A DNA stretch of 20,476 nucleotides, taken from the IMG/VR virus record IMGVR_UViG_3300027734_002867, positions 1 through 20,476 of that record, one strand, 5' to 3'. The notes below the pieces were generated by a model, which saw only the letters and a program-made list of their open reading frames with translations, was not told where the DNA came from and made no database searches. Origin of the DNA: a virus. This document shows positions 1 to 19,540 of this stretch, piece by piece. The position numbers and the translations under genes were made by a program. Each line of letters starts with the position of its first letter. The stretch's first letter is position 1.

Positions 1-1614
1 GAAGTCCCAGAAATTTTTCCGATTGTTTCGTCCCTTACGTCATGGATGACCGACCAGCGACCTACCTTTGATGTGGCTCCCGCAGCGGAACCGCATTCAC
101 CGTTTGCAGAGTTTTACGACCAACTCGCCCACGATTTGAAACTGGTGTTGCAAACCAACTGGCAAGTCGAAAAATTTGATCTCGAAATTGAGAAACTTAT
201 TTGGGACGGCTGGCTTTACGGCATCGGTATCCTGAAATCGTCTTGGGATCAGAACCGTGTCGGCGGACTTGGCAATGCCATGATTTCCCGTATCGACCCG
301 TTTACGTTTTACCCTGACCCGCAAGCCCGCAACATGGATGACGCCAACTATTTTGTTGAAGTGAAAACGTTGCCGGCTCAGGAAGTTGAACGACGTTTTC
401 CGGGGGCATTGAAACGTATCGGTGACGACGCTTATCAGGATTACACGGAAGAATCACCGACTGTTATCAGTGAAACAACTGGGGCAGCGACGCAACCTAA
501 AGCAAACCCTGGAGCCATTTCGCCGGCCACTGCACCCCGTTACGGACTACCCGGTCAAACCGACCGTATGACCGTCAACGACACCCGTGGCATTACTTTG
601 TTTGAGGCATGGCTACGCACCCCCGTCCACACAGACGCCTTCCCTAGCCTCCCTGAAGACGAATCAGCTCTTTCCGGTCCGTCAGACAAAGAACGTATTT
701 ACGATGGCTGGCGATGTGTAGTTATTGCCGGTAACTGTGTGTTAATGGACGAACCCGCAGATGAACTGTGGAACCACGGACAGCACCCATACGACCGGTA
801 TGTACCGATTGATACCGGAGAGTTCTTTAGTTACTCAATGGTGGAGATGCTGTCACCCACACAGCTGTCCATTAATCGCCTTTTGGCGGCGATGGAACAT
901 AACATTTGGCTTACCGGTAACCCAGTGTTTTTGGAAGACAACCGTGCCGGCATTCAACGCACCAAAATCACTAACAAACCCGGTCAGCGTATTAGTATCA
1001 ACGCAGGTGGACGGGCCGAATGGTTGAATCCGCCGCCGTTCCACGAACAATTCGCTATGTCACTAATCGGATTTTATATTGGTGAAATGGAACGCATTTC
1101 CGGTCTGTCAGGCATTGTCCGTGGAGCCACCCCCACCGGACGCAACTCACAAGGCGTGCTGGATTCGGTGCAAGAAGCAGCGTTTGTGCGGATCAGGCAG
1201 GCATTACGCAACCTTGAAGTTGCTTTGCGTGGCTCAGGCGAAAAAGTTGCTTCTCTGGTATGCGAATTTTATGACAAACCACGTTTGGTGGCGATGATTG
1301 GGCCGTCCGGTGAGAAAACTGCCCTCGCCCTTCACCACATGCACTTTTACACGCCCAGCCTCGAAGGTCGTGTCCCCATGCGTTTCCAACTTCTCGTATC
1401 AGCTGGTTCACAAACCTCCACATCACGTTCCGCACGGGTTGGAGAAGCCGACGCCCTGTTCGCTATGGGTGCATTGGACACTGAAGCCGTCTTGGAAGCA
1501 CATGACTGGCCAAACCGCAACATGATTACCCAGCGAATCAGGGAAATGCAGGCAGCTAACGGCACGTTAGGGCAACCCCCTGGCGCACGTCAACGTACAC
1601 AACGGAAATCCTGA
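1..1614 (+). CDS. Portal protein (5'-truncated by window edge)
   Basis: Forms the dodecameric ring at one capsid vertex through which DNA is packaged and ejected. The frame is open from base 1 with no stop, so the first visible ATG (46) is probably internal. The 15 codons before it read EVPEIFPIVSSLTSW, which continues the typical portal N-terminal helix leading into the RPTFDV segment. About 537 residues are visible. Portal-like features are an early alpha/beta region with WDGWLYGIGILKSSWD, the RIDPFTFYPDP stretch (a placement common in portals), a long central helical region around IGEMERISGLSGIVRG, and a charged, Gln/Arg-rich C-terminus. The stop overlaps the next start (TGATG at 1612-1616), implying translational coupling. 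The scaffold-like and capsid genes downstream support the call. The large terminase is expected upstream, outside the window. Confidence 0.85.
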   Translation, partial: EVPEIFPIVSSLTSWMTDQRPTFDVAPAAEPHSPFAEFYDQLAHDLKLVLQTNWQVEKFDLEIEKLIWDGWLYGIGILKSSWDQNRVGGLGNAMISRIDPFTFYPDPQARNMDDANYFVEVKTLPAQEVERRFPGALKRIGDDAYQDYTEESPTVISETTGAATQPKANPGAISPATAPRYGLPGQTDRMTVNDTRGITLFEAWLRTPVHTDAFPSLPEDESALSGPSDKERIYDGWRCVVIAGNCVLMDEPADELWNHGQHPYDRYVPIDTGEFFSYSMVEMLSPTQLSINRLLAAMEHNIWLTGNPVFLEDNRAGIQRTKITNKPGQRISINAGGRAEWLNPPPFHEQFAMSLIGFYIGEMERISGLSGIVRGATPTGRNSQGVLDSVQEAAFVRIRQALRNLEVALRGSGEKVASLVCEFYDKPRLVAMIGPSGEKTALALHHMHFYTPSLEGRVPMRFQLLVSAGSQTSTSRSARVGEADALFAMGALDTEAVLEAHDWPNRNMITQRIREMQAANGTLGQPPGARQRTQRKS

Positions 1615-2429
1615 TGCCAAACTTTAATGACTCCATGAAAGCCAAAGTCGCGCCGGCAGCCATTAACACTGGTTTGGATAGACCGGCAGGCACAGGGTCA
1701 ACAAACGATTTGCTTTATGCTAAATGGGGTGGCAGTACAGGCAGCATTAATGACGCTGGCAACACTTATTTTAACACGGTTAGTGGTCCGGCGTTTCGCT
1801 CGGCGTCAACGGTAACAACACAGACAACTTCGCTTACTGGCACAATTCCTTCTGGTGTCGTTGCTGGTGACATTCTCATCGCACACGTTCGCATCAAATT
1901 TGAACCAAAAGTTGGCACACAAGGTGATATAACTTACGCAGGCTGGACAATGCGTGGTTCCGAGAACGATTACTACGGCGGTTATTGGACTGCCACTTAT
2001 TCAAGAACCGCCACCGGTTCAGATTCTTCATTGACTTGGACTGGGGGAACAAACTGGCATGGAGCCCAAATGTCGATTGTGGCCCTTTCCGGTGCGACTG
2101 CATTGCAGATTTACTATGTGCCAACTGGCATAGCGTCAGACACTTTGTCGGGTCTTGTTGGTGCTTCGATTACCGCCGCCACTTCACCAACGCTTCTTCT
2201 TGGATTTTGGAGCAACACATGTGCCGCTATTTCTGGTTTAGGAACCTTGACACCACCGGCCTCAATGACTGAACGAGTGAACTCCGGGTTTTTAATGATC
2301 GCTAGTGCTGAACGCAATAACGCCATGATTGCTACACAAACTTTGACGGCTCCTGGTGCAACCGGAACTAGAACCGCAACTGTTTCCAATAGTGCTGCCA
2401 ACTTTGTTCAAATGATCGTGGTCAGATAA
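1614..2429 (+). CDS. Beta-rich structural-type protein, possible virion surface or decoration protein
   Basis: 271 residues with no enzymatic motif that I recognise. The N-terminal ~55 residues are low in hydrophobics (PAGTGSTNDLLYAKWGG region). From about residue 60 the protein is Thr/Ser/Gly-rich with alternating beta-strand patterns. It contains a segment of the type TIPSGVVAGDILIAHV, then YAGWTMRGSE and WTATYSRTATGSDSSLTWT. This 'P-x-G-V-x-A-G-D-I-L' plus 'GW' pattern recurs in beta-sandwich modules of phage and secreted proteins. A role on the virion surface or in adsorption is inference. The gene starts inside the portal stop codon (TGATG) without a strong Shine-Dalgarno and ends overlapping the next start (TAATG), so three genes are coupled. 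It is unusual to find such a gene between portal and scaffold. Confidence 0.6.
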   Translation: MPNFNDSMKAKVAPAAINTGLDRPAGTGSTNDLLYAKWGGSTGSINDAGNTYFNTVSGPAFRSASTVTTQTTSLTGTIPSGVVAGDILIAHVRIKFEPKVGTQGDITYAGWTMRGSENDYYGGYWTATYSRTATGSDSSLTWTGGTNWHGAQMSIVALSGATALQIYYVPTGIASDTLSGLVGASITAATSPTLLLGFWSNTCAAISGLGTLTPPASMTERVNSGFLMIASAERNNAMIATQTLTAPGATGTRTATVSNSAANFVQMIVVR

Positions 2430-2980
2430 TGAGATACATAGTTTCAGGACTTCACCGGACAGGCACTTCGGCACTTGTAAGGGCAGTATCAGAAGCGTCA
2501 ACACTTGCCCTCCATGCTGACGCTTCTGTGGAAAGTGTCATTAAGTCACGGGAAATTGACCCGGCGTACAATCCAAATCCGGCAGGGTACTTTTCTCACG
2601 GCACCATGTTTACTCAGATAGCTGATTGGATTGCTGATACACCCGACAATTCAGTAATGAAAGCGGCACCGGAAGCGTTTCTAAACGGGGCCGGCACTGA
2701 ACCTTTAAAGGTTATTCTCACCAGCCGTCCGCAATCCGAAATTGAATTGTCTTTTATGAAAGCTTTCGGTATGGATGTGCCGGAATTCCGGTACACAGCC
2801 CGCATTAACGCCGAAAACATCCTTAAAACAGCCGAAAACGTTGATTTAACTATCATCGATTTTGCTGATTTGATCGCTGACCCGACCGCTGTTTTCACTG
2901 ATTTGGCAGCGAATAAGTGGCCTATCGACATTGATAAAGCCGCATCCACCATTGACCCGACCCTGTATCGCAACAAGTAA
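2429..2980 (+). CDS. Sulfotransferase-like P-loop protein
   Basis: 183 residues. The N-terminus IVSGLHRTGTSALV (residues 4-17) matches the 5'-phosphosulfate-binding loop of the sulfotransferase superfamily, usually GxxRSGTS, here with T11 in place of Ser. The rest follows the family order: NPAGYF near residues 50-55 (family NPxGYxE), KAAPEAF near 78-84, and KVILTSRPQSEIELS near 94-108, where SR and the later Ser correspond to the 3'-phosphate-binding segment. DFADLIADP near 144-152 is next, and the protein ends in a DPTLYR motif. Family members transfer sulfate from PAPS to sugars, proteins or small molecules; the acceptor cannot be read here. The length is at the short end for the family, and no clear catalytic His is obvious. 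The start overlaps the upstream stop (TAATG). An unrelated P-loop kinase is less likely because the classical GxxxxGK[ST] lysine is missing. Confidence 0.7.
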   Translation: MRYIVSGLHRTGTSALVRAVSEASTLALHADASVESVIKSREIDPAYNPNPAGYFSHGTMFTQIADWIADTPDNSVMKAAPEAFLNGAGTEPLKVILTSRPQSEIELSFMKAFGMDVPEFRYTARINAENILKTAENVDLTIIDFADLIADPTAVFTDLAANKWPIDIDKAASTIDPTLYRNK

Positions 2981-2989
2981 GGAAACCTG

Positions 2990-3202
2990 ATGCCTGATCT
3001 TGGATCATCTAACACCCCTGTCCCCATGCCCCGTGATTATGTGGGCGGACCAGACCAGTTTGCTGTTGTCCGTGTCATTGACGGTCACAAAACGTTTGCT
3101 GTAGGCGAAGAAGGACGTAACTGTTATTACCCTAACGGTGACCCTGATGCGTCATCGGAAACCGGTGAAGTGTCTTACGACTTTTCACCTGAGGAATACT
3201 AA
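2990..3202 (+). CDS. Small hypothetical protein, 70 aa
   Basis: No family recognised. It is Pro/Gly-rich at the N-terminus (NTPVPMPRDYVGG) and acidic at the C-terminus (SYDFSPEEY), with a central strand-like stretch FAVVRVIDGHKTFAV. A good ribosome-binding site (AAGGA at 2979-2983) lies 6 nt before the ATG and overlaps the end of the sulfotransferase-like gene. Placement just before the scaffold and capsid genes suggests a head-associated accessory protein, which is inference only. Confidence 0.6.
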   Translation: MPDLGSSNTPVPMPRDYVGGPDQFAVVRVIDGHKTFAVGEEGRNCYYPNGDPDASSETGEVSYDFSPEEY

Positions 3203-3272: not shown

Positions 3273-3419
3273 ATGCCCAACGAGGCGAAGATTCAGAGCA
3301 ACACCGGAAATGCACAGATCAAGAAGGTTGGCCACACGGCTACTACGCTTTTTGGTTCGAACCCTGACGCTAAGGGTCCGACGAACAGCAAAACCCCCCG
3401 TGACCTTTCCGCTAAGTGA
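3273..3419 (+). CDS. Small basic hypothetical protein, 48 aa
   Basis: The frame is open from an ATG at 3228, but I chose the ATG at 3273. A GGAG sits 7 nt before it, and the upstream residues (MPYTCVRSLTLWRLT) do not look protein-like. The product begins MPNEAKIQSN and is rich in Lys, Thr, Asn and Gly with no hydrophobic core, so it may be disordered or DNA/capsid-associated. No family recognised. It sits in a run of three small genes just before the scaffold-like gene. Confidence 0.5.
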   Translation: MPNEAKIQSNTGNAQIKKVGHTATTLFGSNPDAKGPTNSKTPRDLSAK

Positions 3420-3441: not shown

Positions 3442-3813
3442 GTGCCTACCACCCGTACAGATAATACGTTTCAGGAAGCTCTTATGAAAATGCTCCGCAG
3501 CCTTGCGGACATGAAGGTGCTTCCCGATGCCGATTTGGAATGGGTGCTGGGGATTGAAATGGAAGTTGTTCAAAAACTGCGTGAGCCTATTGATCTTATG
3601 CAGCAGCAAGGAACAACTGGTGTGCCTGGAATGCCCCCAATGTCCGGCCCTATGGGTCCAATGGATCAGGGTATGGGTGGCGGTATGCCTCCTATGCCTA
3701 TGGGTCCACCTCCGGGTGGTCCGATGATGGGTGGCGGCGGCGTTCCAGGCATCCGCAATGAAGCACCAATGCCAAATCCCGACGAACTTCGTCGGCTTCT
3801 AACACAGGGGTAA
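3442..3813 (+). CDS. Gly/Met/Pro-rich small protein, 123 aa
   Basis: It starts with GTG; AAGGA at 3431-3435 lies 6 nt upstream. Residues 1-52 are predicted helical (QEALMKMLRSLADMKVLPD, then a second helix ending in LMQQQG). Residues ~55-105 are a low-complexity Met/Pro/Gly tract (GMPPMSGPMGPMDQGMGGGM), followed by a short C-terminal helix DELRRLLTQG. Helix, flexible Met/Pro/Gly linker and helix is an architecture seen in phage head-assembly accessory proteins next to scaffolds, but no specific family is recognised. The next gene follows after 8 nt. Confidence 0.6.
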   Translation: MPTTRTDNTFQEALMKMLRSLADMKVLPDADLEWVLGIEMEVVQKLREPIDLMQQQGTTGVPGMPPMSGPMGPMDQGMGGGMPPMPMGPPPGGPMMGGGGVPGIRNEAPMPNPDELRRLLTQG

Positions 3814-3821
3814 ATTAAAAC

Positions 3822-4952
3822 ATGAGTATTGAGGACGCTTTCGCTCCCGGCGACGCATACGACGATAATCAGTCACTAACAAACCGTGAAGGTTTGGATG
3901 CTGCAACAGGCACAGCCGCTGACGGTGTAGACACCGCACCGGGTATGACTGTAGCGGATATGGCTTCTGAACTCGCAGAGTTTTTCACTGAACGAGATCA
4001 GGGTTACGAAACACCGGTTATTGAAGAAATCGAAGCCGACCGTGACGTGGACGCTGAAGTTGATTTGCGTCCCGACAACGATCAAACCGTTTTTGACCCG
4101 GACGAGCAGCCACTTCCTGTTCAGGAACCGGACACTTATTCCATTAATGGCCGAGACATCAGTCGTGACGAAGCGAACCAGCTTTTAGCTCTTTACGACT
4201 GGGCTGCGACCCTGCCCCCAGAGTCTGCACAAGCAATCAACGATGTGCTTTCTGGTCAGTATTATCTTGCACCGGTTGACAGTACCCCATCCGCGCCGGC
4301 CCCCACCGCGGCGAGCGGCAGCGGCCCATCCCCGGCCACCTTTACCCCTGGGGTGGCTGGGGTAGGGCAGACTTCTGTTCCTGCTATTGACCCTAACCGG
4401 TTTGTTGACCCGGAACTTGCCCAGTATGTGCAGCAGGTCACTGACCAGCAGAACGCCCTTATCGCTCAGCAGCAGCAGCAGCTCGCTGATTATCAGGCGC
4501 AGCAGGCGCAACTTGCTTCGTATCAGGCGCAGCAGGAACAAGACCGTCTGATGCAGCAAGTTCAGGTCGGTCAGAACACGTTTTCTGAAACACATCCTGA
4601 CTTCACCCCCCAAGACATTGATGCTCTTGTTAATCAGGTCGCTTCCCTCCAAATTGTTCCTTCACTAATGAAGAAGCATGCAGGGAACGCAGCGGCAGCA
4701 ATGTCTGAAGCAATGGAAACGGCACTGTGGGCTACCCCGCAGTTCCGTGACCGTGCCATTCAAGCACAAATCGATCAGTTCGCACAGACCACTGAGCAGA
4801 CCGCACAGAAGAAGCGGAAAGCTAGTGCTTTGTCAGGTTCAAGCGGATCAGTTGCCCGCACCGCCCCCGACGCCCGTCCTATGACGAAGGCTGAGCGTGA
4901 GCAGGCAATGATTCGTGAAGTCGCCAACGCTATGAACGGTGCTGAAGGCTAA
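3822..4952 (+). CDS. Putative capsid assembly scaffolding protein
   Basis: 376 residues, very acidic in the first third (EEIEADRDVDAEVDL, RPDNDQTVFDPDEQ). A Pro/Ala/Ser/Thr linker follows (about residues 155-185), then a Gln-rich coiled coil (QQVTDQQNALIAQQQQQL, about 200-245). The second half is helical, with a basic end (QTAQKKRKAS near 328-337) and a short C-terminal helix MTKAEREQAMIREVANAMNG. An acidic, largely helical protein with a basic C-terminus directly upstream of the major capsid gene is the classic scaffold pattern. The coiled coil contains two 10-residue repeats (ADYQAQQAQL, ASYQAQQEQD). The ATG is preceded by AGGGG at 11 nt. A helical minor head protein is the alternative. Confidence 0.65.
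   Translation: MSIEDAFAPGDAYDDNQSLTNREGLDAATGTAADGVDTAPGMTVADMASELAEFFTERDQGYETPVIEEIEADRDVDAEVDLRPDNDQTVFDPDEQPLPVQEPDTYSINGRDISRDEANQLLALYDWAATLPPESAQAINDVLSGQYYLAPVDSTPSAPAPTAASGSGPSPATFTPGVAGVGQTSVPAIDPNRFVDPELAQYVQQVTDQQNALIAQQQQQLADYQAQQAQLASYQAQQEQDRLMQQVQVGQNTFSETHPDFTPQDIDALVNQVASLQIVPSLMKKHAGNAAAAMSEAMETALWATPQFRDRAIQAQIDQFAQTTEQTAQKKRKASALSGSSGSVARTAPDARPMTKAEREQAMIREVANAMNGAEG
4491..4536 (+). repeat. 30-bp-period direct repeat in the scaffold coiled coil
   Basis: TATCAGGCGCAGCAGG occurs at 4491-4506 and again at 4521-4536, in frame, and encodes YQAQQ within a 10-residue repeat. A CAG/AGC-rich run lies just before it. It probably arose by slippage or local duplication and lengthens the coiled coil. 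Confidence 0.8.
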
Positions 4953-5054: not shown

Positions 5055-6029
5055 ATGGCAACTCCCATCGGCAGCAACGTCGTCACCGCCATCTCCCGGC
5101 ATTACATTATGCCTGAGATCGTTGATAACATTTACAACAGCAACCCGATCTTCTTCCGTCTGAACAAGGCAAACAAGCGGATCGTGCGTGGTGGAACTCA
5201 AATCGAAGTTCCTCTCATGTACTCGCGTTTCGGTACCGGCGGAGCCTACTCTGGCTTTGACCTCCTGAACGTGGCCCCGTCCGACACCATCAAGAATGGT
5301 TCGTGGGACTGGAAGCAGCAGTATGTGAACGTCACCGTTGACGGTCTTACCCTCATCAAGACTGACAACCCGCAGGCTGTCGCAAACTTCATTCAACTCT
5401 ATTTCGCTCAGGCTGAAATGGAAATGGCTGAAAACCTTGCGACCGGTCTCTGGTCTGACGGCACAACCAACACGAAGGACATTGACGGCCTTAAGGGTTC
5501 AGTTGATGATGGTACGGTTCTTGCCACCTATGGTGGTCTGTCCCGTTCCGCTAACACTTGGTGGAAGTCACAGGTCGATTCAACGACTTCGACTCTTACC
5601 CTTGCAGCCCTTCAGTCCATGTTTGGTTCGGTTTCCCGTGCAGGTCGTCACCCGTCGATCATCTGCTCACGTCAGGAACAGTACAACCGTTTCTGGAACC
5701 TCAACGTTGTTACCCAGCAGTTCCCGACCCAGCCTTCAGGTATGGACGAGCAGCTTGCGGCAGCCGGTTTCACAAACCAGTTGTTTAACGGTATCCCGTG
5801 GGTTGTTGATTCACATTGCTTTGACGGTCCTAACTCGTCGAACTCGGCTATTGTTATGCTCAACGAAGATTTCCTGTACTGGGCTGTTTCTCCTCGCGCA
5901 GATTTTTACCTTGAGCCTTTCCAGTCGCCAGTTAATCAGGACGCTATGGTCGCCAAGATGCTTTGGGCCGGCAACCTTATTAACACGAACGTGTCCCGTC
6001 ACGGCAAGCTCACGAACATCTCGGCGTAA
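5055..6029 (+). CDS. Major capsid protein, HK97-fold type
   Basis: 324 residues forming the icosahedral shell. Typical capsid features are a short N-terminal region, NPIFFRLNKANK (29-40), a GGTQIEVPL strand followed by YSRFGTGGAYSGFDLLN (E-loop-like), and SWDWKQQYVNVTVDGLTL (83-100). Next come a helix of the AEMEMAENLATGLW type (spine-helix-like), a VDDG loop, IICSRQEQYNRFWNL, and a C-terminal beta segment NEDFLYWAVSPRADFYLEPF. GGAGG at 5041-5045 lies 9 nt before the ATG. An earlier ATG at 5047 is out of frame. Length, position after a scaffold-like gene and the small decoration-like genes downstream all agree. The C/T-ending codon choice is consistent with high expression. Confidence 0.88.
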   Translation: MATPIGSNVVTAISRHYIMPEIVDNIYNSNPIFFRLNKANKRIVRGGTQIEVPLMYSRFGTGGAYSGFDLLNVAPSDTIKNGSWDWKQQYVNVTVDGLTLIKTDNPQAVANFIQLYFAQAEMEMAENLATGLWSDGTTNTKDIDGLKGSVDDGTVLATYGGLSRSANTWWKSQVDSTTSTLTLAALQSMFGSVSRAGRHPSIICSRQEQYNRFWNLNVVTQQFPTQPSGMDEQLAAAGFTNQLFNGIPWVVDSHCFDGPNSSNSAIVMLNEDFLYWAVSPRADFYLEPFQSPVNQDAMVAKMLWAGNLINTNVSRHGKLTNISA

Positions 6030-17302: not shown

Positions 17303-17387
17303 TGAGAACATTCCGAACCCTGACGCTGAGGGTCGTATCCCATATTTCACTGCCCCTGCCGGTGAAGAACACCCGGAGGAACAATGA
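17295..17387 (+). CDS. Small acidic ORF, 30 aa
   Basis: MDDENIPNPD...PEEQ, strongly acidic, no family recognised. Evidence that it is translated: AAAGGA at 17280-17285 lies 9 nt before the ATG, it overlaps the HTH gene by 8 nt, and it overlaps the lysin start by ATGA (17384-17387). Its last codons contain the GGAGG that serves the lysin. It may act as a coupling leader for lysin translation rather than as a functional protein. Confidence 0.45.
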   Translation: MDDENIPNPDAEGRIPYFTAPAGEEHPEEQ

Positions 17388-18016
17388 CTACCGCCCAGCA
17401 GGTATTGGACTTTGAAGGCGCGCGTCTAGGTCAAGGCGGCGACGAAACGTGGGGCTGGTATCCGTTAAGTCAAGGGACGGCGTGGTGTTGTGCTTTTCAA
17501 AGCATGTCTCTCACATCATGTGGTATTCCCACCCATTACTCATGGGTTTCTGCGTTGTTTGACGATTACCGCAGCCAAAACCGCAACTCGTATGACATTC
17601 GTACCGCACAACCCGGTGACCTTGTTGCGTTTGAATGGGGATCAACTCCCAATGGTTACGACCATGTTGCCATGATTATTGCACTCACTGAGACTGGTGC
17701 ATGGACCCGTAACGGCAATGTGAACGGTTCCAAAGTTGCTGACCTGTGGTTTCCGTTTGACGGAGGCGGCATGGCCGAAATTGCTAGACCCCCTTACACC
17801 AACCCCCCTGAACCGGAGGAAGAAATGAAAAGTGTCCTGTTAGTTGATCGTCGTAAAAATCCTTCACCTGTTTACCATGCTTTTGGCAACACGAAAGTGT
17901 GGCTGTCAAAGCAGGAACAGGTGGACCTTGTACGTTTTTTTGGTGCGGAAACTGTTGATCCGGCACCTGCCGCTTGGCTTGATGCTTTAGCGACTTTGCC
18001 TCGCAACGATGTGTAA
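17384..18016 (+). CDS. CHAP-type peptidoglycan hydrolase (endolysin)
   Basis: 210 residues. The N-terminal CHAP domain (about 1-135) has the catalytic Cys in AWCCAFQS (C35 in the W-C-x-x-F pattern). PGDLVAFEWG (78-86) and GYDHVAMI, with the catalytic His at 94, follow. The usual third polar residue probably lies near TRNGNVNG (109-115). CHAP enzymes cleave amide or endopeptide bonds in peptidoglycan. A Pro/Glu linker (PPYTNPPEPEEE, 136-147) leads to a ~63-residue C-terminal domain starting MKSVLLVDRRKNPS, presumably for wall binding. No signal peptide, so release needs a holin. The start overlaps the 30-aa ORF (ATGA). An internal start at 17825 has its own ribosome-binding site (separate entry). 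Confidence 0.85.
   Translation: MTTAQQVLDFEGARLGQGGDETWGWYPLSQGTAWCCAFQSMSLTSCGIPTHYSWVSALFDDYRSQNRNSYDIRTAQPGDLVAFEWGSTPNGYDHVAMIIALTETGAWTRNGNVNGSKVADLWFPFDGGGMAEIARPPYTNPPEPEEEMKSVLLVDRRKNPSPVYHAFGNTKVWLSKQEQVDLVRFFGAETVDPAPAAWLDALATLPRNDV
17825..18016 (+). CDS. Possible second product of the lysin gene from an internal start (C-terminal domain, 63 aa)
   Basis: GGAGGA at 17815-17820 sits 4 nt before an in-frame ATG (17825-17827), exactly at the junction between the Pro/Glu linker and the C-terminal domain. Translation from it would give a free 63-residue domain beginning MKSVLLVDRR. Some known endolysins of Gram-positive phages (for example enterococcal Lys170 and the clostridial CD27L/CTP1L) make a separate C-terminal subunit from an in-gene start, which joins the full-length enzyme. 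The Glu-rich linker could produce the GGAGG by chance, so this is a candidate only. Confidence 0.4.
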   Translation: MKSVLLVDRRKNPSPVYHAFGNTKVWLSKQEQVDLVRFFGAETVDPAPAAWLDALATLPRNDV

Positions 18017-18742: not shown

Positions 18743-19540
18743 ATGATGCGAACACATCTTGTCATCCCAGACACACAAGCAAAAGACGGTGTACCCAACG
18801 ACCATCTTGGATGGATCGGGGAGTACATACTGGACCGCCGGCCTGACTGCATAATCCATCTCGGTGATCATGCAGACATGCCGGCGTTATCCAGCTGGGA
18901 CAAAAACAAACGGTCCTTTGAAGGGCGCAGATACAAAACCGATATCGAAGCAGCCAACAAAGCCTTCGACATTCTCTGCGAACCCTTAGAAACATTTAAC
19001 CGTACACATAAACGCAACCGGTACGAACCGGAACTGCATCTCCTGTACGGCAACCATGAGCATCGCATCACCCGTGCCACCGAAGACGACGCCGCCCTTG
19101 ACGGAACGATCAGTCTCGACGACCTCAACTATGAGGAACACGGCTGGACCACCCACGAGTTCCTGAAACCTTTGGAACTGGACGGTGTGTGGTACGCCCA
19201 TTACTGGTCCAACCCAATGTCAGGTCGCCCATACTCAGGTGCCGCCATCAACCGACTTAAAACCATCGGACATTCCTTCACGATGGGGCATCAACAAACC
19301 TTAGATTACGCCACCCGATTCCTACCCAACGGGCAGCAACAGTGCGGACTCATAGCAGGCGCAGCATACCTCCACGACGAAGATTACAAATCGTACCAGG
19401 GCAACCATCATTGGCGGGGAATCATCGTCAAACATGAGGTCGAAAACGGACGTTACGACCCCATGTTCGTGTCACTCGATTACCTGTGCCGCAAATACGA
19501 AGGTGTGCCGCTCAAAAAGTTTAAAGCTCGTCGCTTTTAA
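18743..19540 (+). CDS. Calcineurin-like metallophosphoesterase
   Basis: 265 residues with the metallophosphoesterase signature: an N-terminal strand ending in PDTQ (residues 9-12, usual D-x-H), GDHAD (41-45), the GNHEHR box (103-108), a His in YAHYW (153) and a final GHQQ (182-185; usual G-H-x-H). The metal ligands D10, D42, N104, H153 and H183 can be assigned from the family, with Q12 replacing His. The enzyme hydrolyses phosphoesters; the substrate is unknown. The start could be either of two adjacent ATGs (18743 or 18746). AGGGG lies 6 nt upstream of the first. Its 3' end overlaps the convergent minus-strand gene by 20 nt. C/A-ending codons dominate, unlike the T/G-rich parts of the late genes. 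Confidence 0.8.
   Translation: MMRTHLVIPDTQAKDGVPNDHLGWIGEYILDRRPDCIIHLGDHADMPALSSWDKNKRSFEGRRYKTDIEAANKAFDILCEPLETFNRTHKRNRYEPELHLLYGNHEHRITRATEDDAALDGTISLDDLNYEEHGWTTHEFLKPLELDGVWYAHYWSNPMSGRPYSGAAINRLKTIGHSFTMGHQQTLDYATRFLPNGQQQCGLIAGAAYLHDEDYKSYQGNHHWRGIIVKHEVENGRYDPMFVSLDYLCRKYEGVPLKKFKARRF

Follow-up and report, generated by a model that had tools for sequence, protein, structure and literature searches.

The DNA analyzed here – 20,476 nucleotides from a viral contig, referred to throughout as the window – carries two overlapping open reading frames on the forward strand, the second of which (2429..2980) very probably encodes a PAPS-dependent sulfotransferase-fold protein of 183 aa, as judged from ORF calling, profiles and fold. 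Its ATG start codon lies inside a TAATG overlap with the upstream 271-aa ORF at 1614-2429. A first-pass annotation had proposed the downstream reading frame, its coupling to the upstream gene through TAATG, and four motifs within it; the ORF proved to be real, the TAATG is present, and all of the motifs were found, with GLHRTGTS at residues 7-14, NPAGYF at 50-55, VILTSRPQSEIELS at 95-108 and DPTLYR at 176-181. These are not chance occurrences: purifying selection acts on the gene, and the eight positions that stay invariant across 29 divergent homologues include the P-loop residues, K78 and the R100...S108 pair. The same annotation had placed the gene between portal and scaffold. Upstream of these two ORFs there is indeed a gene for a P22-type portal (PF16510, E 2e-19; phrog_156, E 1e-34), but the scaffold at 3822 is assigned by its position, profile searches giving no significant match for it. 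This putative scaffold is separated from the sulfotransferase gene by three small ORFs (2990-3202, 3273-3419 and 3442-3813), and the major capsid protein gene is further downstream at 5055 (phrog_9953, E 4e-56). Scans for promoters, terminators, tRNAs and Rfam families found nothing.

On its own, the window protein passes no Pfam or NCBIfam cut-off; Sulfotransfer_4 is a sub-threshold Pfam match (E 0.24; 11.7 bits versus a gathering score of 22.8), Sulfotransfer_3 is absent from its Pfam matches, and direct searches in NCBIfam, PHROGs, PDB and INPHARED gave no match. An initial scan of genome contigs found no relative. Scans of IMG/VR yielded close relatives in the first round (60-74% identical), then relatives at 36-39% identity on contigs of up to 97 kb, and then distant members with a canonical GxPRSGTS-type loop; two bacterial MAG proteins were the last relatives added. 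The family alignment thus comprises 29 sequences drawn from phage contigs and two bacterial MAGs. In both MAG proteins the sulfotransferase domain is fused behind other regions, named here by eye: alkaline-phosphatase-like and TPR regions in a Chitinophagales MAG (L063:4111-6579) and a thioredoxin in a Kuenenia MAG (L064:5608-6552). A 128-kb phage contig has two tandem genes with the sulfotransferase domain (L056:5947-8024).

Eight residues are invariant in the 29-sequence alignment – G7, R10, G12, T13, N50, K78, R100 and S108 – and R181 is nearly so. The first four lie in the predicted 5′-PSB (PAPS phosphosulfate-binding) loop GLHRTGTS (2447..2470, +), which has the form GxxRxGTS/T and lacks a Walker lysine, and N50 (2576..2578, +) is part of an NPNPxGYF or NPxGYYE motif. 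R100 and S108 form the predicted 3′-PB motif R100-(7)-S108 (2726..2752, +), with Arg and Ser eight residues apart following the central strand (residues 93-99 in the model), in a region that aligns with STF1 and SULT1A1. The invariant set includes both the 5′-phosphosulfate loop and the 3′-phosphate-binding Arg...Ser of sulfotransferases. K78 (2660..2662, +) may correspond to the lysine that is conserved in sulfotransferases, and it and the C-terminal R181 of DPTLYR (2969..2971, +) may both act in cofactor binding. With regard to catalysis, K78 is invariant, no His or Glu is, and the SULT-type Lys-x-His is not conserved; H57 of the near family adjoins a column occupied by Glu in the majority of distant members.

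Profile comparisons connect the window protein to known sulfotransferases through the distant members of the family. A profile built from distant members only (L034 excluded) matches the window protein at E 9e-29, with the database size fixed at one million, and matched none of 2000 shuffles; a profile-profile comparison of near and far members gives E 4.5e-38. Because the window protein is matched by a profile of distant members alone, the family link is not circular. Three distant members (L061 from a phage, and L063 and L064) pass the Sulfotransfer_3 (PF13469) cut-off, L063 also passes that of Sulfotransfer_1 over most of its length, and 16 of the 29 members match Sulfotransfer_3 with E values no higher than 0.1. 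The family profile, searched against PDB sequences, matches Mycobacterium tuberculosis STF1 at E 1.2e-5, followed by weaker matches that are almost all to sulfotransferases; with the bacterial members removed the order is similar and the matches weaker (STF1 E 0.009), and the near-family profile gives only chance matches. Searching INPHARED by tblastn with the L034, L058, L061 and L064 homologues returned nothing.

Structure prediction leads to the same family. AlphaFold run with eight close sequences gave a pLDDT of 62.8, an unfolded middle and weak fold matches, and with the 29-sequence alignment a pLDDT of 96.8 and a pTM of 0.92. The best nine PDB fold matches are all structures of glycopeptide sulfotransferases (Teg14, StaL and Teg12; probability 0.95-1.00), with STF1, TPST2 and SULTs among the next and kinases lower in the list. 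The PDB TM-scores are only about 0.5, because the window protein is compact and much shorter than the known enzymes; the best match in a viral library, A0A6J7WIG0 (183 aa, 67% identical), has a TM-score of 0.97. Motifs, profile and fold together back the proposal that the protein belongs to the PAPS-dependent sulfotransferase superfamily, and neither of the outcomes named beforehand as speaking against it – a different P-loop family, or a fold not of the PAPS type – emerged from the profile searches and structure prediction. Neither the sequence nor the model has a signal or membrane segment.

The partner gene (1614..2429, +) encodes a putative virion adhesin composed of an N-terminal anchor (residues ~1-58; 1614..1787, +) and a C-terminal beta domain (residues 59-271; 1788..2426, +), the latter always adjoining the sulfotransferase gene in nearer relatives. 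In all 23 contigs with nearer relatives of the sulfotransferase (at least about 36% identical), a beta-domain gene is located directly upstream and the stop and start codons overlap; one of these contigs is cut inside the sulfotransferase gene, a few are near-duplicates, and one (L001) has the same sequence as the window in this region. The pair occurs on several phage backbones, including the window type with its P22-like portal, tape-measure-bearing phages in which it is often downstream of a metallophosphoesterase gene, a 97-kb type in which collagen-repeat proteins lie ahead of the capsid gene, and L048, where it sits between portal and scaffold/capsid. What precedes the beta domain on its N-terminal side varies with phage type, and includes LamG-like (L040) and fibronectin-like (L048) regions, named by eye. 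Distant relatives of the beta domain that lack the sulfotransferase are found inside other proteins (L096-L098), and the distant sulfotransferases that lack this beta domain (L034, L052, L055-L062) are mostly still among phage structural genes. In L052 and L057-L060 a large conserved gene (with KTFDLGGGK or similar) follows or overlaps the sulfotransferase gene and is a possible virion partner.

Two other window genes resemble genes of phages with otherwise different genomes. A metallophosphoesterase gene at 18743-19540 (phrog_221, E 4e-55), 16 kb from the pair, is 66-70% identical to the gene upstream of the pair in many otherwise unrelated phages. A 210-aa gene at 17384-18016, probably functioning in lysis, is 49-63% identical to genes in L006, L007, L009, L012 and L015, and its likeness to these unrelated contigs suggests a second piece common to two phage types.

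Comparison with the closest relatives of the window (L065-L067; capsid 90% and portal 83% identical) shows what has been exchanged. Their slot between portal and scaffold holds one gene, encoding 342-344 aa, of which the first ~58 residues match the 271-aa protein at 61-64% identity; the remainder is a glycine-rich domain, and there is no sulfotransferase. Phage adhesins are known to have such glycine-rich tips. DNA similarity to these relatives ends at 1712-1717, inside the anchor, and resumes at 2978-2982, at the sulfotransferase stop codon, so that 1712..2982 has no DNA similarity to them. Together with the conserved anchor, these borders define the exchanged unit as the tip domain plus the sulfotransferase gene. 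The pair at 1614-2980 had been described in the first-pass annotation as looking like an insertion, to be compared with related phages as a unit of presence or absence. The slot is indeed variable, and beta domain and sulfotransferase are swapped; however, the anchor of ~58 aa stays in place, and being common to the relatives it rules out insertion of the whole pair with a complete 271-aa gene. More distant relatives have other long proteins in the slot, mostly fibre-like ones, or unrelated proteins. In one phage group (L068-L076) the slot is a hot spot, filled by proteins of 880 and 447 aa, a hydrolase-like gene and further genes.

The two parts of the exchanged unit often evolve at different rates. 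The sulfotransferase is under purifying selection, with dN/dS of 0.10-0.31 between relatives, whereas the beta domain is often the much faster-diverging part; between L006 and L013 its dN is 0.587 versus 0.035 in the sulfotransferase, and between L019 and L020 the dN/dS values are 0.72 and 0.20, respectively. In a few pairs (e.g. L012 and L013) both genes diverge alike. Such fast divergence would be expected if the beta domain faces a receptor. Its alignment has no invariant tyrosine, the best column reaching 13 of 20, and sulfation of tyrosine at a fixed beta-domain site is thus unsupported.

Searches of Pfam, PHROGs and PDB with the beta domain gave no significant match, so we infer its place in the virion from its neighbours. 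A tblastn search of INPHARED with the beta protein found nothing. The 271-aa protein is most likely a virion-displayed adhesin with a phage-type-specific anchor and an exchangeable tip, and the swapping of beta domain and sulfotransferase together suggests that they form one functional unit. There is about an even chance, in our estimate, that this unit pairs an exchangeable adhesin tip with its own dedicated sulfotransferase, acting either on the tip or on a sugar that the tip recognizes. Coupled translation late in infection would yield the tip protein and the sulfotransferase together, and the latter, as a small cytoplasmic PAPS-dependent enzyme, would take sulfate from host PAPS. The acceptor could be a side chain of the tip domain, or a glycan attached to it, modified before assembly, or, less directly, the sugar recognized by the tip. 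A protein acceptor would fit best because a cytoplasmic enzyme is coupled to one structural gene, and we slightly favor the adhesin itself as the substrate. More tentatively, the pair may represent a widespread two-gene cassette in which a receptor-facing tip is swapped along with a dedicated sulfotransferase that sulfates it, giving a virion adhesin that is post-translationally sulfated in bacteria.

The main rival explanation, possible though less probable, is that sulfate is transferred by the enzyme to a glycan of the host surface, or to the cytoplasmic precursor of that glycan, which alters the receptor late in infection, such that progeny avoid debris or the cell resists superinfection, with enzyme and tip dealing with one sugar. 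This would account for the joint exchange and for a conserved enzyme next to a variable tip; enzymes with the nearest solved folds have glycopeptides and small molecules as substrates, and there is a precedent in bacterial sulfotransferases that modify LPS (PMC12445080). However, with no signal or membrane segment in the enzyme the acceptor must be cytoplasmic, and tight translational coupling with one structural gene better suits a protein partner.

It is unlikely that the protein has kept the sulfotransferase fold but now serves the tip as a chaperone for folding or assembly, positioned as tail fibre assembly (Tfa) genes are. Gene order and exchange as a unit match fibre/chaperone pairs, and a catalytic base is not identified among the conserved residues, there being no invariant His or Glu, but a chaperone would have no need of the cofactor-motif residues that are invariant in 29 divergent proteins, and distant members of the family have other partners. 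Still less credible is a metabolic gene of bacterial origin, acting on a small molecule and riding as a passenger in a variable slot; bacterial MAGs do contain related domains, in fusions with alkaline-phosphatase-like/TPR and thioredoxin regions, but against this reading all 23 nearer relatives, on unrelated phage backbones, carry the same beta domain immediately upstream. Membership in another P-loop family such as nucleotide or sugar kinases can be dismissed on motif and fold, since GLHRTGTS lacks the Walker A lysine of GxxxxGK[ST] and, despite the kinases lower in the fold list, the nine best PDB folds and nearly all profile matches are sulfotransferases.

The pairing of an adhesin tip with a sulfotransferase – the latter catalytically active, as we infer – can be compared with several known systems. 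In fibre and Tfa cassettes an accessory gene follows a fibre-type gene and travels with the C-terminal portion of the latter, and the window pair is similar both in the position of the sulfotransferase behind a presumptive fibre-type gene and in its exchange with the C-terminal part of that gene. To our knowledge Tfa proteins do not have the sulfotransferase fold, and the window protein has no Tfa match in Pfam or PHROGs. StaL, Teg12 and Teg14, the best fold matches, are 10-15% identical to the window protein, about 45-100 residues longer, and act on glycopeptide antibiotics; STF1 (2zq5), the best PDB sequence-profile match, is aligned across both PAPS motifs but is a 384-residue chain of about twice the length. 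Relative to Sulfotransfer_3, whose cut-off it does not itself pass, the window protein is likewise shorter.

The sulfotransferase family name is not new among phages, and a sulfotransferase is not by itself an unusual gene for a phage. A0A6J7WIG0, from an uncultured Caudovirales phage (BFVD/UniProt), is already annotated as 'Sulfotransferase family protein', although with the family name only. A Sulfotransfer_3 gene has been published in OM43 phages and Synechococcus phage S-SRM01, with its function stated as unclear and, in the parts of that report consulted, no paired adhesin domain reported (PMC10580990). Among titles and abstracts found for phage sulfotransferases in the open-access literature, none describes a tip-plus-sulfotransferase cassette. 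In the present comparison one sulfotransferase lineage is linked, through gene coupling and the mapped borders of recombination, with an exchangeable domain of virion type, so that an open-ended annotation becomes a statement on substrate and stage that can be tested. Should the tip prove to be sulfated, sulfation would join the modifications of phage particles, such as glycosylation, that are already proposed or known.
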